Below, one piece after another: positions 1-55,380 of a DNA stretch of 55,380 nucleotides. Made by a program: the position numbers and the translations under genes. The notes under the pieces are model-generated. The model was not told the DNA's origin. It made no database searches and worked only from the letters and a program-made list of their open reading frames with translations. Location of the stretch: IMG/VR virus record IMGVR_UViG_3300048556_000227, positions 1 through 55,380 of that record; one strand, written 5' to 3'. Every line of letters starts with the position of its first letter. The stretch's first letter is position 1. The stretch comes from a virus.

Positions 1-199
1 GCCACTTGCGTGCCAGCTGGATTTCGCCAAGTGGCACACACCTAAGCCCTTGATCTTACACAGGTTTCCCTTCAAAAAGCGCATTTGCGTGCCATGTGTG
101 CCACCTAAAACAGACCTTGTTTTTTTTTATTTCTTCTTTTCACGTTTTTCTTTTTTTTTCTACTAACCCAATTTTAAGTGGCACACATGGCACACATTT
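1..199. repeat. Terminal direct repeat, left copy
   Basis: Bases 1-199 are repeated at 55183-55380. The copies differ by one base: the T run at 120-128 has nine Ts here and eight in the right copy. This shows that the genome is circular, circularly permuted, or ends in direct terminal repeats. The mismatch in a homopolymer suggests sequencing error between two independently read copies rather than an exact k-mer overlap from assembly. Confidence 0.95.
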
Positions 200-2686: not shown

Positions 2687-2883
2687 GCGACACACGCGCA
2701 GATCAGATCGTCCAGCAATTACAAATGATTGCTGCACACGCCGAGAACGCTCCTGACATCAGCCCCAATGGCAAGAACCACAGGTACATATCAGCTGTAG
2801 GCCTTGCTGACCTGTTGCTGGAAGCAGCAGACCTGATCGATGAGCAGATCACAAAAACACTAGACCCTAGATCGTGGCACTAG
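2683..2883 (+). CDS. Small hypothetical protein (66 aa)
   Basis: The GTG start at 2683 overlaps the TGA stop of the preceding gene (GTGA), implying translational coupling. The product is short, acidic and helical (ADQIVQQLQMIAAHAEN... GLADLLLEAADLIDEQI). No family is recognised. The end of the gene carries TAGACC repeats like those at 828-846. Confidence 0.6.
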   Translation: MSDTRADQIVQQLQMIAAHAENAPDISPNGKNHRYISAVGLADLLLEAADLIDEQITKTLDPRSWH

Positions 2884-2921
2884 GGCCTAGACCTTTCCCC
2901 TGCCACATTACTGGAGAAGAC

Positions 2922-3140
2922 ATGATGTCTGACATTTTCGTAAAAGTAGTACGCGTCCCTGGCGCTGTAACCGAAGTCGCCTTATCTGCAGGCGCAACCG
3001 TAGCTGACGCTCTGTCCGCTGCTGGTATCTCTTCCACTGGCTCTGAGTCCATACGTGTTGGCGCTGCTGACGCAACCGTGGACACCTCTGTCGGTGACGG
3101 AGATCGCGTTGTGATCGCGCAAGGAGCCAAAGGCAACTAA
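2922..3140 (+). CDS. Ubiquitin-like beta-grasp protein (ThiS/MoaD-type modifier, 72 aa)
   Basis: The protein looks like a ThiS/MoaD or ubiquitin-type beta-grasp domain: an N-terminal beta hairpin (IFVKVVRVPGAVTEVALSAG), the helix with the family phrase GATVADALSAAGI, and the C-terminal GDGDRVVIAQG strand that precedes the conjugation tail. It ends GAKGN, so removal of the last Asn would expose a terminal Gly like that of a mature ubiquitin-like modifier. The start at 2922 (or the adjacent ATG at 2925) follows GGAG at 2913-2916. It heads a cassette with an E1-like enzyme, a JAMM protease and an E2-like protein, which strengthens the call greatly. Sulfur-carrier function in thiamin or molybdopterin synthesis is the main alternative, but no such pathway gene is present. 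Confidence 0.75.
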   Translation: MMSDIFVKVVRVPGAVTEVALSAGATVADALSAAGISSTGSESIRVGAADATVDTSVGDGDRVVIAQGAKGN

Positions 3141-3164
3141 CCGACCACACCACTTTCGGGGTAT

Positions 3165-3186
3165 GGCCCATCAGTAATGGTGGGCC
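3165..3186 (+). promoter_or_regulatory. Hairpin in the gap after the ubiquitin-like gene
   Basis: GGCCCA (3165-3170) pairs with TGGGCC (3181-3186) around a 10-base loop. It lies in the only sizeable gap (3141-3251) inside the conjugation cassette and has no T tract. It may protect the modifier's mRNA end or limit read-through so that the small modifier is made in excess over the enzymes; this is inference. Confidence 0.4.
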
Positions 3187-3251
3187 TCCATCGGACGCTC
3201 GGAGTATGCCAACCCTACTGCCCTGCCCCACCCTTTTAAGGAGACCACGAA

Positions 3252-3422
3252 GTGACAAACCCAAAGCTATTTGTGCTGGGTAGACCTGAAGATTTTACCA
3301 ACCAAGAAGTTGACTGGCTTACCGACCTGATCACAGAAAAGCTCAACGACGATGGCATTGCGCCTGAGTCTTTCGCGTTTCAGATCCGTGTTGAGTACAC
3401 CCCGGCAAAGGAGACCCAATGA
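3252..3422 (+). CDS. Small protein of the ubiquitin-like cassette (56 aa)
   Basis: A GTG at 3252 follows AAGGAG (3239-3244) and opens a 56-residue frame whose TGA overlaps the ATG of the E1-like gene (ATGA). The protein is acidic, starting MTNPKLFVLGRPEDFTNQEVD, and reads as beta-alpha-beta with no known motif. Tight coupling to the E1 gene suggests that it works with it, for example as an adaptor, a specificity factor, or a diverged second modifier. No family is recognised. Confidence 0.65.
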   Translation: MTNPKLFVLGRPEDFTNQEVDWLTDLITEKLNDDGIAPESFAFQIRVEYTPAKETQ

Positions 3423-4108
3423 TGCTCTCAACAATACGTCACGACGCAGTGTTCCGTGCATACGACTACAAGGATTATCCGATCCACATTGTCGGTGCCG
3501 GTGCTACTGGCTCGCGTGTCTTCATGTCACTTGTAGAGTTGGGCCTGACCAACCTGCATGTGTATGACTTCGACAATGTGGAGCCCCACAACCTAGCCAA
3601 CCAAGCGTTCTTGTTCGAGCACGTCGGTATGCCCAAAGTCAAAGCGTTGCAGAACCTAGCATCGCTCAAGCTCGGCGTGCCTGAAGACAAGCTGCCAATG
3701 CGATTCATCAACGAACGCATCGACCAGCGACAGTTCGACGGCTTCCTGTTCTTGCTGACCGATACGATGGCATCGCGTCGCAAGATCATCAGCAATCAAG
3801 ACTTTGGCCCCGACAGTATGTTGTTCCATGTCTTCGAGACTCGTATGGCATCGTCACATGGCAACGTATTCCACTTCTCACCAACCAACCCACACCAACG
3901 TCAAGCGTGGTTCGACTCGCTCATCAGCGACGACGAAGGCGAAGTGTCGCCCTGCGGTACCAGCATATCCGTAGGCGCTACTGCTTCGCTCATTGCCAAC
4001 CTAGCCGTATGGGAGTTCATGAACTTCCTACTCGACGACGGTTGTGCAACAGCACAGCTCGACGTGTTCTTCAAACCCATGCTACTCACGACCAGAGACC
4101 AAATATGA
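3419..4108 (+). CDS. E1-like (ThiF/MoeB/UBA-type) adenylating enzyme (229 aa)
   Basis: This is a stand-alone E1-like Rossmann protein that should adenylate the C-terminus of a ubiquitin-like partner with ATP. The nucleotide-binding loop is GAGATGS (residues 26-32), followed by the acidic strand VYDFDNVEPHNLANQ (48-62, with Asp50 and Asp52), GMPKVKAL (70-77, Lys73 and Lys75), and LLTDTMASRR (112-121, Asp115 and Arg120). The arginine usually found in the NxNRQ motif is replaced (NLANQ). Cys179 in SPCG lies where many ThiF proteins have a functional Cys. It overlaps both neighbours by four bases (ATGA), so it is translated as one unit with the 56-aa protein and the JAMM protease. Confidence 0.88.
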   Translation: MMLSTIRHDAVFRAYDYKDYPIHIVGAGATGSRVFMSLVELGLTNLHVYDFDNVEPHNLANQAFLFEHVGMPKVKALQNLASLKLGVPEDKLPMRFINERIDQRQFDGFLFLLTDTMASRRKIISNQDFGPDSMLFHVFETRMASSHGNVFHFSPTNPHQRQAWFDSLISDDEGEVSPCGTSISVGATASLIANLAVWEFMNFLLDDGCATAQLDVFFKPMLLTTRDQI

Positions 4109-4908
4109 ATTTCTATACCCAACCAAGTGGTGCGGACATCGACAGTTCCTCGATGGATCCCGTCATCACTCCGCTCTATGAAGAGCCCCCCATGCCCGTT
4201 GTGTACTACACACCCAACGTTAAAGCCGTAATCAATCACCTTGTTGCAGTGAACACTGCCGAGGTGGGCTGGCTCGGTCTGGTTAAGCAGGTCAACGACA
4301 ACGACTACTTGGTCTACCAAGTGTACGTGCCCAAGCAAACTGTCCATGCAGCCGAGACAGACATCGACTCCGATGCTATGGCCAATCTTGGTATCGAGAT
4401 CGCAGAAGCAGACATGCCTCCTGAAGATCTTTATTACTGGGGGCACAGCCACGTAAACATGGACGTTTCACCCAGCGCACAGGACGAGTCACAAATCGAA
4501 GAGTTTCTGGAAGCTGGATGCAAGCAGTTTATACGCGGTATATACAACAAGTACGGGCACAGTAAGGTCGATGTCTACGACGTACCGCGCAATGTGATCT
4601 ATCAATGTGTACGTGAAGACGTTGAGGTCAGCTTGACTGCCGAGCAGGTTGAGCGTCTTGACGATCTGATCAAAGCCAACGTCACCAAGAAACCGACTCC
4701 GGTTTATAAAAAGACACACATCAAACGCAATCCTGTCATCAGCAACCTGCCTGCAAACAACTACCACAGCCAACTGCAGCAGCCGTTCTATTACAGCGAC
4801 ACGTTCGATCACCTCGACGACACAGGCCTTGGCAACTATGCCGATGACTTTGACGACGGGGCTGACGATTTCTTAGACGGATACGACCCATCAAGGAGAA
4901 TTCAATGA
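4105..4908 (+). CDS. JAMM/MPN+ (JAB) metalloprotease, putative deconjugase (267 aa)
   Basis: Residues about 38-160 form a JAB domain. The upstream glutamate is Glu53 (AEVGWLG) and the zinc motif HSH-x7-S-x2-D is complete: His114, His116, Ser124, Asp127. Enzymes of this kind cut ubiquitin-like proteins from targets or trim their precursors. The C-terminal 100 residues are outside the domain and include a Tyr/Asp-rich tail. Start and stop overlap the E1-like and E2-like genes by ATGA. In phage tails JAB domains occur fused to NlpC/P60 peptidases; here there is no such fusion and no tail gene nearby, so a role in ubiquitin-like processing is preferred. Confidence 0.88.
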   Translation: MNFYTQPSGADIDSSSMDPVITPLYEEPPMPVVYYTPNVKAVINHLVAVNTAEVGWLGLVKQVNDNDYLVYQVYVPKQTVHAAETDIDSDAMANLGIEIAEADMPPEDLYYWGHSHVNMDVSPSAQDESQIEEFLEAGCKQFIRGIYNKYGHSKVDVYDVPRNVIYQCVREDVEVSLTAEQVERLDDLIKANVTKKPTPVYKKTHIKRNPVISNLPANNYHSQLQQPFYYSDTFDHLDDTGLGNYADDFDDGADDFLDGYDPSRRIQ

Positions 4909-5807
4909 GCTGGTCACATCAACAAGCACTCACACTCAATCCTGGCAAAGAGCTTAAAGCGGAGTTGGAACTTCAACTTGAGCTTGAGAAGACAGAAGCA
5001 GAAATAAAACGCGACATTGTTCGTCTACATAAGCTCAGGTCGCAGCATTCAACCGATCAATGGATTCGAATACGAGACGCTTACAAGCAGCCCCACTCAT
5101 GGCTGGTGTATCAGCTCACGGGTGGTCATACACACTTAAAAGAGCGGATAGAAGTGTTGATCAAGCACTATCACCAAGAAGCGGACGAGCAGTGCCGTGA
5201 CAACTATGAAGCTCTACAAATAGCAGAAGCACGCTACGAAGTCGTCCAAGAGCGAATGGCGCAAGCTGAAATGAGACTCCGCATGGTACGCGATCAAGCT
5301 GACATCGTTGTCAGCAGAGATATGCTCGACACATTTCTGCGCGACAATGCCCACTACACACCTGACTCTTTGCAGTTGTCTTACAACGACGAGCCTATGC
5401 AGCACCGAGTCACCTTCAGCCTACGTGACATCATCGCCACCAACCCTCGTGGTAACAATCCTATTGTTATCCCACCACTGCGTATCGACTTCTATATCTT
5501 CCCGACCGGCAGTCATGACCTTGTGGTTCGTAACGATATCGGTCGCCCTTACTGGACAGATCGGTACAAAGGCTACTCCGAGGTTCCGCTGTTGCACCCA
5601 CACATGACAAGTGAAACGACACTGTGCTTGGGCGACTTTGGTGAAGGTGTTACCGAAGCAATCAGTGAAGGTGACTTCGTTACTGCTATCACAATACTCA
5701 CCATGTTCTTTCAACAATACGATCCAGACGATTCTGCAGGGGCATACCACAATGTGTGGCCTGATGCTGACGAAGACCGTCACATTGCTGACTACGCTGA
5801 CGCTTAG
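4905..5807 (+). CDS. E2-like ubiquitin-conjugating (UBC-fold) protein with coiled-coil N-terminus (300 aa)
   Basis: Residues 15-135 are long charged helices, probably a coiled coil. Residues about 165-275 match an E2 core in outline: strands (HRVTFSLRDII, IVIPPLRIDFYIFP), then HPH-MTSETTLCLG (231-243) with the His-Pro-His turn and the candidate catalytic Cys241 in CLG, then a helix (EGDFVTAITILTMFFQQYDP). This is the order HPN...G-x-x-CLxxL seen in E2 enzymes. It is the last gene of the coupled cassette. The coiled-coil extension could serve substrate choice or replace an E3. Call is from motif and context, not from a search. Confidence 0.75.
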   Translation: MSWSHQQALTLNPGKELKAELELQLELEKTEAEIKRDIVRLHKLRSQHSTDQWIRIRDAYKQPHSWLVYQLTGGHTHLKERIEVLIKHYHQEADEQCRDNYEALQIAEARYEVVQERMAQAEMRLRMVRDQADIVVSRDMLDTFLRDNAHYTPDSLQLSYNDEPMQHRVTFSLRDIIATNPRGNNPIVIPPLRIDFYIFPTGSHDLVVRNDIGRPYWTDRYKGYSEVPLLHPHMTSETTLCLGDFGEGVTEAISEGDFVTAITILTMFFQQYDPDDSAGAYHNVWPDADEDRHIADYADA

Positions 5808-17359: not shown

Positions 17360-17579
17360 CGGCGACATGGTGCATTCACCTGCGCACTATGCCGAAAGCG
17401 ACATAGAGTGTATCGACGCAATGGTCGCAGCGTTTGGTGCTGAAGCTGTACAGACGTATTGCCGCCTTGCCAGCTTCAAGTATCAATGGCGTGCCGGAAA
17501 GAAGTTCGATGCCGATGAAGACCTTCGCAAATCTATCTGGTACACGCGCTTCGCAATGGGTGACGACCCACGAGCTTAG
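17352..17579 (+). CDS. DUF3310 protein (75 aa)
   Basis: HSPAHYAESDIECIDAM (8-24), YCRLASFKYQWRAGKK (37-52) and DEDLRKSIWYTRF (56-68) match the DUF3310 family, found in many phages and sometimes linked to nucleotide kinases. The function is not settled. It is the last plus-strand gene and its 3' end overlaps the integrase 3' end by four bases. Confidence 0.85.
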   Translation: MTDGDMVHSPAHYAESDIECIDAMVAAFGAEAVQTYCRLASFKYQWRAGKKFDADEDLRKSIWYTRFAMGDDPRA

Positions 17580-18643
17580 AAGTTTTCGGCGTTTAGCTGC
17601 GTATACCGACGCAGCGTTTCCCACTTTTTATGCCCTGAGATGTGCGCTACTTGTGGTATCGAATAGTTGCTTTCTCTGTCTTCGAACAATCGGCTAATAC
17701 CTTCGTGCCGCAAGTCGTGAAACGTCAGATCTTCAATGCCCACCCGCTTACATACCCGAGCAAACCTGTCTGATATTGCCCCACTCGTCGCAGGCTTCCC
17801 AAACACGTGATCAGGCCGTGCAGGCAGTCGAATCCTGTTACGGGTTACCTTGCCAACCTTCTCATATTCACGCAGGAGCACCTCTCTCACGCCCTTTCTC
17901 ATGGGTATTACGTGGTCATTGCCCTGCTTGCGACCTGGAGTTCTTCTGCTTTCTATAGCAATGGTGTGCTTGCCAAAGTCTACATTCGCCCAAGTTAGCT
18001 CATGGATTTCGCGCTGACGCATACACGACTCCACAGCAAACTCGATCATCGGGCTTAACCAGTTGTTCCCAGACTCAGCGTTGTGCTGTCGCCCTACACC
18101 AGCCATCAGTTTTTCCCACTCCCCTTCCTGCAACCGGCGTGTACGGCGTTTGCTGCCTGCGACCATCTTGAGTGAACCGAGCGTAGGCTGTGTAACCACA
18201 ACGGGGTTCGCTGCTATCGGCAGCCTCCAGATCACAATGCCGTAATCGATCACCTGCTTGAGATAGGACATGTCTTTTTGAAGCGTTGATGCGGCGACCT
18301 TCTGACGACGCTGTTTGCCGTAGTTAAGTAGGTACTGTGGGGTCAGGTCACTGAGCGTATCCGCCCCAAACTCACGGGCCATACGGCGTAGGCTTGCGAG
18401 CTTAGACCCAGACACTGGAGCTGTGTCCTTTAGTTCTTCGATGTAGTTGTAGATCAGATCCGACAGGTTGTGGCTGACCTGTGTGCGCTCGTTAACGTAG
18501 ACGCCTGCGTCCATCTGCATCTCGACCTTCATAGCCCATGCTTTCGCCGCAGATTTTGTTTGAAACGTCTTGGTGACCCGTGAATATCTAGCTTTCTTTA
18601 TTGCCGCACGCCACTTATTGCCGCGACGTTCAAATGTAGCCAT
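17576..18643 (-). CDS. int: Tyrosine-family integrase (355 aa)
   Basis: The protein has an N-terminal arm-binding part (ERRGNKWRAAIKKARYSRVTKTFQTKSAAKAWA), a core-binding domain (about 60-155) and the catalytic domain with Arg209 (SCMRQREIHELTW), His309-x-x-Arg312 (HDLRHEG), His338 (ISGHKKW) and the nucleophile Tyr347 (RRYTQL). All are present and length is normal, so it should be active. It is transcribed toward the early genes and its ATG lies 79 bases from the putative attP core, so its own promoter would be within the arm-site region. Confidence 0.96.
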   Translation of the reverse strand: MATFERRGNKWRAAIKKARYSRVTKTFQTKSAAKAWAMKVEMQMDAGVYVNERTQVSHNLSDLIYNYIEELKDTAPVSGSKLASLRRMAREFGADTLSDLTPQYLLNYGKQRRQKVAASTLQKDMSYLKQVIDYGIVIWRLPIAANPVVVTQPTLGSLKMVAGSKRRTRRLQEGEWEKLMAGVGRQHNAESGNNWLSPMIEFAVESCMRQREIHELTWANVDFGKHTIAIESRRTPGRKQGNDHVIPMRKGVREVLLREYEKVGKVTRNRIRLPARPDHVFGKPATSGAISDRFARVCKRVGIEDLTFHDLRHEGISRLFEDRESNYSIPQVAHISGHKKWETLRRYTQLNAENF

Positions 18644-55094: not shown

Positions 55095-55182
55095 AACCTA
55101 GCTGGCCAACGACGTGCCACTTCTCCTGTGACAACGGCGTCGTGCCCCCCGTGCAAGTGTGTGCCATGTGTGCCACGTGCGT
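55095..55182. repeat. Gene-free end region with reverse iterons
   Basis: No gene is visible between the terminator and the terminal repeat. TGTGTGCCA, the reverse of the iteron, occurs at 55158-55166 and 55167-55175, and shorter GTGCCA/GTGCCAC copies lie nearby. When the circle is closed this continues directly into the cluster at 32-290. Confidence 0.6.
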
Positions 55183-55380
55183 GCCACTTGCGTGCCAGCT
55201 GGATTTCGCCAAGTGGCACACACCTAAGCCCTTGATCTTACACAGGTTTCCCTTCAAAAAGCGCATTTGCGTGCCATGTGTGCCACCTAAAACAGACCTT
55301 GTTTTTTTTATTTCTTCTTTTCACGTTTTTCTTTTTTTTTCTACTAACCCAATTTTAAGTGGCACACATGGCACACATTT
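55183..55380. repeat. Terminal direct repeat, right copy
   Basis: Copy of bases 1-199 with eight instead of nine Ts in the first T run (55302-55309). It marks the point at which the sequence begins to repeat; the non-redundant genome is therefore 1-55182. Confidence 0.95.

Follow-up and report, generated by a model that had tools for sequence, protein, structure and literature searches.

In bacteria, ubiquitin-like conjugation has become known chiefly as a defence against phages. What, then, is such a gene set doing in the genome of a phage? The question is raised by the virus record IMGVR_UViG_3300048556_000227 of IMG/VR, which was analysed over its whole length of 55,380 nt (the window). 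It contains a cassette of five genes for a ubiquitin-like modifier (Ubl), a small protein (p56), an E1-like enzyme (E1), a JAB/JAMM protease (JAB) and an E2-like protein (E2). We consider it probable that the cassette constitutes a self-contained, phage-encoded Ubl conjugation system, whose target would be presented by a coiled coil, vary from strain to strain and most likely be a protein of the host, possibly of its defence, or of a rival element. If this is true, ubiquitin-like chemistry would be in use on the virus side, by a gene set that is complete, widespread among phages and for the most part mis-annotated. As judged from the sequences, the -KGN tail of the Ubl, tandem poly-Ubl precursors and a near-neutral, apparently exchanged E2 coil are new here.

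Components of the cassette

The five consecutive open reading frames (ORFs) recognised in the sequence-only reading were all confirmed, as were the ATGA overlaps (p56/E1, E1/JAB, JAB/E2) that link the last four of them. The earlier claim of a complete five-gene set held for Ubl, E1, JAB and E2, which recur together, but not for p56. Several relatives lack p56 or have another gene in its place; it is thus optional and not part of the core, and it gave no match in family scans of Pfam, PHROG, NCBIfam and PADLOC.

The beta-grasp fold proposed for the modifier was recovered in its AlphaFold2 model (predicted local distance difference test, pLDDT, 88.5). The top Foldseek matches of this model were Caldiarchaeum (archaeal) ubiquitin, SUMO, NEDD8, TtuB and SAMP1, all ubiquitin-family proteins, with a probability of 1.00, a best E of 1.7e-3 and TM scores of ~0.6-0.74. 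The sequence GAKGN resides at the C-terminal end or one residue from it in all ten distinct Ubls of close marine relatives, while the Ubls of wider relatives possess KGN or KGA followed by 0-24 further residues. Three loci (L189, L191 and L215) encode two or three Ubls in tandem with KGN at each junction, an arrangement like that of polyubiquitin genes. Ubls with tails or tandem repeats, found in these loci and in L061 and L074, imply a processing protease, for which JAB is the candidate. The residue to be activated may be either the Asn or the preceding Gly; the PRTRC_C Ubl in a plasmid copy (L025) of the PRTRC system ends with GTKG, close to GAKG-N. The KGN end and the tandem precursors bear on the evolution of modifier maturation. 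At three loci, two adjacent Ubl genes or an additional multi-Ubl protein away from the cassette were seen (L178:3473-3989, L069:9994-10731, L179:9237-9902). Furthermore, a conserved gene of ~130 aa precedes the gut-type Ubl (L020:2572-2997 and gut loci) and may be an extra cassette member. To keep it out, the gut-Ubl profile was built with a length filter.

The assignment of the stand-alone E1 was corroborated by a Pfam ThiF match (E = 2.8e-18) and by a profile search of the PDB, whose matches include UBA5. Among 62 relatives, the GxGxxG motif as well as D50, N58, Q62, K73 and D115 are near-invariant. Within the GAGATGS stretch noticed earlier, G26, G28 and G31 are present in 62/62. C179, further downstream, is kept in 60/62. 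Hence, at sequence level, E1 has both an ATP-binding loop and, with Cys179, a candidate for the catalytic cysteine.

JAB exhibits the full JAMM signature, a Glu and H-x-H-x7-S-x2-D, of which the latter had been proposed. Each of the residues E53, H114, H116, S124 and D127 recurs in 72 of 73 relatives. Family matches of the window JAB alone were weak (Pfam Prok-JAB, 0.055; PADLOC JAB, 1.1e-3), and a profile search of the PDB with JAB gave no match. In Flavobacterium phage Fpv1 (KU599877; L022:2704-4996) the JAB gene is apparently split into an N-terminal half (2704-3057) and a half containing IHSH...S-x2-D (4052-4996); between them, an ORF for a homing endonuclease of LAGLIDADG type runs on the other strand. 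This is the pattern that an intron inserted into the JAB gene would give.

For E2, scans of Pfam, PHROG, NCBIfam and PADLOC did not yield a match beyond one chance-level NCBIfam line (E 0.36). Its AlphaFold2 model (pLDDT 86) comprises a long helical hairpin, then a helix, strands, an active-site loop and helices; the predicted order of elements is that of UBC proteins. The loop carries the sequence HPHMTSETTLC (HPH-x7-C), in which the distance from His to Cys equals that in HPN...C of eukaryotic E2s. P232, H233, C241 and G243 are each present in 33 of 34 relatives, and in the E2s of gut relatives no residues other than H and C of the motif NPH...C are conserved in 34/34. The profiles of the marine and gut E2 groups aligned at 97.7% probability. 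The fold matched uncharacterised caudovirus proteins. When named phages were searched by tblastn with E2 alone, no match resulted. In eight loci (L185, L194, L196, L199, L200, L203, L211 and L223), two neighbouring ORFs match the E2 profile.

Table. Positions of the cassette genes and of features within them in the window
Feature	Position	Strand	Basis
Ubl modifier, 72 aa, beta-grasp, C-terminus GAKGN	2922..3140	+	AlphaFold2, Foldseek; ribosome-binding site GGAG ~10 bases upstream
Conserved C-terminal tail GAKGN, candidate E1 / JAB site	3123..3137	+	conservation among Ubls
Ubl-p56 intergenic region with GGCCCATCA..TGGTGGGCC hairpin	3138..3251	+	folding energies vs shuffles
p56, 56-aa accessory protein, optional, GTG start	3252..3422	+	ORF, comparison with relatives
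Stand-alone E1-like (ThiF/MoeB superfamily) adenylating enzyme, 229 aa	3419..4108	+	Pfam and PDB profile matches
E1 nucleotide-binding GAGATGS	3494..3514	+	conservation of G26, G28, G31
E1 candidate catalytic Cys179	3953..3955	+	conservation
JAB/JAMM metalloprotease, 267 aa	4105..4908	+	family matches, conserved residues
JAMM motif HSH-x7-S-x2-D (H114, H116, S124, D127), E53 upstream	4444..4485	+	conservation
E2-like protein, 300 aa: coiled-coil hairpin and UBC-like domain	4905..5807	+	AlphaFold2, conservation, profile
Hypervariable E2 coiled-coil module, residues ~15-130, candidate target-recognition part	4947..5294	+	dN/dS, mosaic identity
Predicted UBC-like catalytic domain of E2	5295..5771	+	dN/dS 0.14-0.20; AlphaFold2 helix-strands-loop-helices order
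Candidate E2 active site HPHMTSETTLC: H231, P232, H233, C241	5595..5627	+	conservation

Recurrence in viral genomes and variation of the E2 coil

Had homologues of these genes been found only scattered, a functional cassette would have been doubtful. Instead, all 15 close marine relatives found by means of E1 retained Ubl, E1, JAB and E2 in this order, as the survey suggested by the sequence-only reading was to examine. A scan of viral contigs seeded with JAB gave 73 loci, 71 of which contain an adjoining E1. The E1-seeded scan disclosed 218 relatives, and of the best 80, which were examined, 76 possess JAB, at least 65 E2 and at least 69 Ubl; counting against these figures, the profiles used were partly trained on relatives from the JAB scan and those of E2 and Ubl were iterated, so that some E2 and Ubl matches may be weak. 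Most loci are metagenomic contigs. The association of the genes exceeds chance, and it is maintained despite rearrangement, since several gene orders retain the same parts in the loci of both scans. The cassette is more widespread than initially guessed.

Ubl-E2-JAB-E1 sets were also detected between replication genes of Flavobacterium phage Fpv1 and of the crAss-like phages Kolpuevirus, DAC17, cr128_1 and Dulem virus 41. Profile alignment with the marine proteins gave a probability of 84% (E 8e-6) for their JAB and of 58% (E 1e-4) for their E2. The Ubl reached only E 0.29 with the marine Ubl profile and was assigned by its position and a KSG[AG] or VSSG motif. Xanthomonas jumbo phage PhiXhv-12 harbors a Ubl ending with SGG, a protein of 893 aa with HPHM...CLG and an E1; no JAB was recognisable between or beside these genes, and a scan of the viral contigs with the Xanthomonas E1 gave no relative. 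Genes of the divergent cassettes are annotated as 'thiamine biosynthesis', 'metalloprotease' or hypothetical. Judged by sequence similarity and motifs, the cassette appears to recur, mostly mis-annotated, in many phages unrelated to each other, among them crAss-like phages, phages of Flavobacterium and jumbo phages of Xanthomonas. In open-licence full texts, where absence is not proof of novelty, we found no account of a phage-borne cassette of this type, and the crAss-like phage papers with open-licence text that were examined do not mention ubiquitin or ThiF. The system is testable in cultured carriers, namely the Flavobacterium Fpv phages, the Bacteroides crAss-like phage DAC17 and the Xanthomonas jumbo phages.

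The early or replication arm, in which the cassette had been placed, was supported as its location by the adjoining replication genes. Among 134 neighbouring ORFs at 36 diverse loci, DNA polymerase, helicases, DnaB/primase and single-stranded DNA-binding protein (SSB) were recurrent families, joined in the gut group by reverse transcriptase; the 25 most frequent families included none of structural proteins. In 41 gut-type viral loci a reverse transcriptase gene is found at a distance of up to ~6 kb from the cassette, and one was also noticed at L020:6834-8171.

The E2 protein is composed of two parts that evolve very differently. In the comparison of the window with its relative L001, E1 and JAB are 100% and 99% identical, respectively, and E2 residues 131-289 are 97.5% identical with a ratio of non-synonymous to synonymous substitution rates (dN/dS) of 0.14. 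Residues 1-130 of E2, however, are only 65% identical, with a dN/dS of 0.95; for the coiled-coil module (residues ~15-130) values of about 0.95-1.06 were obtained. Several other marine pairs gave dN/dS values of 0.86-0.96 for the coil versus 0.15-0.27 for the UBC part, and values for E1, JAB and the UBC domain lie at 0.05-0.2. At the DNA level, window and L001 are ~99% identical save for the region of about 4950-5300 (69-79%). L002 and L004 exhibit the reverse pattern, with 91-100% identity to the window at about 4950-5300 and ~75-90% in JAB and the UBC part. The simplest reading of this opposite mosaic is that the coil module has been swapped between close relatives by localised recombination. 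The coil may be a replaceable target-recognition part, and its fast, near-neutral evolution and apparent exchange suggest that the target differs between strains. In a system without E3, such a variable E2 module would offer a direct handle on target selection.

Proposed function and its alternatives

The data show which genes are present and how they are arranged, their folds or motifs, how far they are conserved and associated, and how differently the two parts of E2 evolve. From this we infer the enzyme chemistry, the sequence of transfers, what the coil does and what is tagged, as follows. The cassette would probably be expressed together with the replication genes, its location suggesting early expression. 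E1 would adenylate the C-terminus of the Ubl, either GAKGN or a form trimmed by JAB, and the Ubl would be passed to Cys179 of E1 and then to Cys241 of E2. The N-terminal coiled-coil module of E2 would present the target protein in place of an E3, and the Ubl would be joined to it by an isopeptide bond. JAB may mature tailed or tandem Ubl precursors, take the tag off again, or both. The variable module suggests a changing partner, and a host (defence) or rival-element protein is a more likely target than a fixed phage protein. Taken together, early location and variable module favor the tagging of host-defence or rival proteins, i.e., counter-defence or takeover. Only tentatively, and as a possibility that falls somewhat short of probable, we extend this proposal to tailed phages at large: from marine podoviruses to crAss-like phages they may broadly carry a conserved E1/E2/JAB/Ubl engine with an exchangeable, fast-evolving E2 coil as target module, by which changing host-defence or rival proteins would be tagged and disabled during infection, using a -KGN modifier outside the di-glycine rule.

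Several data weigh against a conjugation system of this kind. The Ubl does not end with GG, which is common, though not universal, in Ubl conjugation systems; the window Ubl ends with GAKGN and most relatives with KGN or KGA, and in distant relatives even the penultimate residue is not always Gly (KSN, KSA, DNA). Fold support for the UBC domain, which the sequence-only reading had assumed together with the candidate Cys, is not decisive. A comparison of the E2 profile with four eukaryotic UBC sequences aligned the catalytic motifs at E 0.0018 (negative controls, 0.2-0.5), but with a probability of 14.7% only, and is to be taken as indicative. A Foldseek search of the PDB with the whole E2 model gave coiled-coil matches only, and a sequence profile of the UBC domain found no match in the PDB. 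Motif, conservation, predicted topology and profile nevertheless make the UBC assignment of the C-terminal domain likely, but not proven. Moreover, the contrast between coil and UBC part is weaker in gut pairs, in which the dN/dS of the coil is 0.26-0.39, and values near 1 fit relaxed constraint, the main alternative to a role in target recognition, as well as diversifying selection.

The main rival explanation is that conjugation is aimed at a DNA-replication or repair protein of phage or host and regulates phage replication instead of attacking host defence, comparable to SUMO and ubiquitin on PCNA, as PRTRC may do on plasmids. In unrelated phages the cassettes adjoin genes for a DNA polymerase, a helicase, a primase, SSB or a uracil-DNA glycosylase, and purifying selection acts strongly on E1, JAB and the UBC domain; both would agree with such a role. 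A fixed phage target, however, would not predict the fast-changing, exchanged E2 coil, and early regions of phages commonly hold counter-defence genes, too. On balance, a replication target seems possible but unlikely.

Rather improbable is superinfection exclusion, by which the cassette would tag structural proteins of competing phages, as Bil (bacterial ISG15-like) systems tag phage tail proteins. All four component types are shared with Bil, and a tyrosine-type integrase in the window (17576-18643; phrog_1, 1.4e-45) suggests possible lysogeny of this podovirus-like genome, a condition under which exclusion pays. Yet the phage would need to spare its own virions, the cassette sits among replication genes, crAss-like and jumbo carriers are not generally regarded as temperate, and Ubl and E2 have no PADLOC family match.

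We judge it very improbable that the Ubl is a ThiS/MoaD-like sulfur carrier for cofactor or nucleoside thiolation, with E1 generating its thiocarboxylate. Although E1 belongs to the ThiF/MoeB superfamily and the Ubl resembles the TtuB, SAMP and Mth1743 folds, this would not account for the JAMM protease or for an E2-like protein whose His and Cys are invariant; the Ubl does not end with GG, and thiolation or cofactor genes were not identified in the searched parts of the window. Cofactor biosynthesis was rejected as there are no partner genes and an E2 is present. Least credible is a chemistry like that of MccB, an E1-like enzyme adenylating the C-terminal Asn of the MccA peptide, in which E1 would turn the Asn of KGN, invariant in the marine set, into an adenylylated or succinimide product and no protein conjugate would arise, as relatives end with KGA, KSA or DNA and neither E2 nor JAB would be needed.

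Known systems and genome layout

The likeness to Bil and type II CBASS (cyclic oligonucleotide-based antiphage signalling) seen in the sequence-only reading was upheld for the kinds of parts, whereas the tests of CBASS membership failed. Bil anti-phage systems consist of Ubl, E2, JAB and E1, and the phage cassette, a possible member, has the same set of parts and works in a like manner. It differs in its carriage by a phage, the single Ubl domain (in the window), the coiled-coil E2 and the KGN end; E1 and JAB gave generic PADLOC matches only, whereas Ubl and E2 gave none. With Cap2 and Cap3 of type II CBASS the cassette shares the chemistry of E1, E2 and JAB, but its E1 of 229 aa stands alone, whereas Cap2 is an E1-E2 fusion, and the cassette has a separate Ubl. 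Membership in type II CBASS was rejected, since the window genome has no match to the CD-NTase family SMODS (PF18144) and no E1-E2 fusion. Similarity to 6A-MBL Cap2-3 and other fused E1-E2 proteins (PADLOC E1-E2) is confined to the nucleotide-binding region of E1, in which only ~60 residues align, and the phage E2 is a separate protein.

PRTRC, operon type 6d of Iyer 2006 (PMC1779556), works like the phage cassette with the same kinds of parts. Type-6d E2s have no His before the Cys, unlike the phage E2 with its HPH, and the type-6d JAB has an extra N-terminal domain (PMC1779556). The gene order differs, and PRTRC resides on plasmids, not on phages. PRTRC membership was rejected: E1 is weakly similar to PRTRC_ThiF (TIGR03736), with 31.8 bits against a cut-off of 144.75, the NCBIfam models of PRTRC C, A and B gave no match for the window Ubl, JAB and E2, and the 55 kb window genome contains no PF02195 match for the ParB-related gene.

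Eukaryotic and archaeal ubiquitin systems (e.g., Caldiarchaeum) are alike in the Ubl fold, the His-to-Cys spacing of E2 and the JAMM protease; the phage cassette has HPH for HPN, no recognised E3 gene and a non-GG modifier. Tail assembly protein I of lambda and T1 (PMC1779556) likewise combines a Ubl domain with JAB, but it occurs without E1 and E2 among tail-assembly genes, whereas the cassette of the window lies in the replication arm. Tail assembly was rejected as a function, the cassette being in the wrong genome region.

Both ends of the window (1-199 and 55181-55380) share ~199 bp save for a one-base indel, which points to direct terminal repeats and makes it probable that the genome is complete. 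Its content is podovirus-like and includes a family-A DNA polymerase, a primase-like protein, a helicase, an exonuclease, portal, terminase, and major head and internal virion proteins. The left third consists of rightward replication genes, with the cassette upstream of the DNA polymerase, and the structural genes lie on the opposite strand. A hairpin between Ubl and the enzyme genes was found in every marine relative examined, with a different sequence each time. Its folding energies are only modestly better than those of shuffles, except in L015 and L008. The hairpin in the Ubl-p56 gap might serve to set the Ubl in excess over the enzymes.

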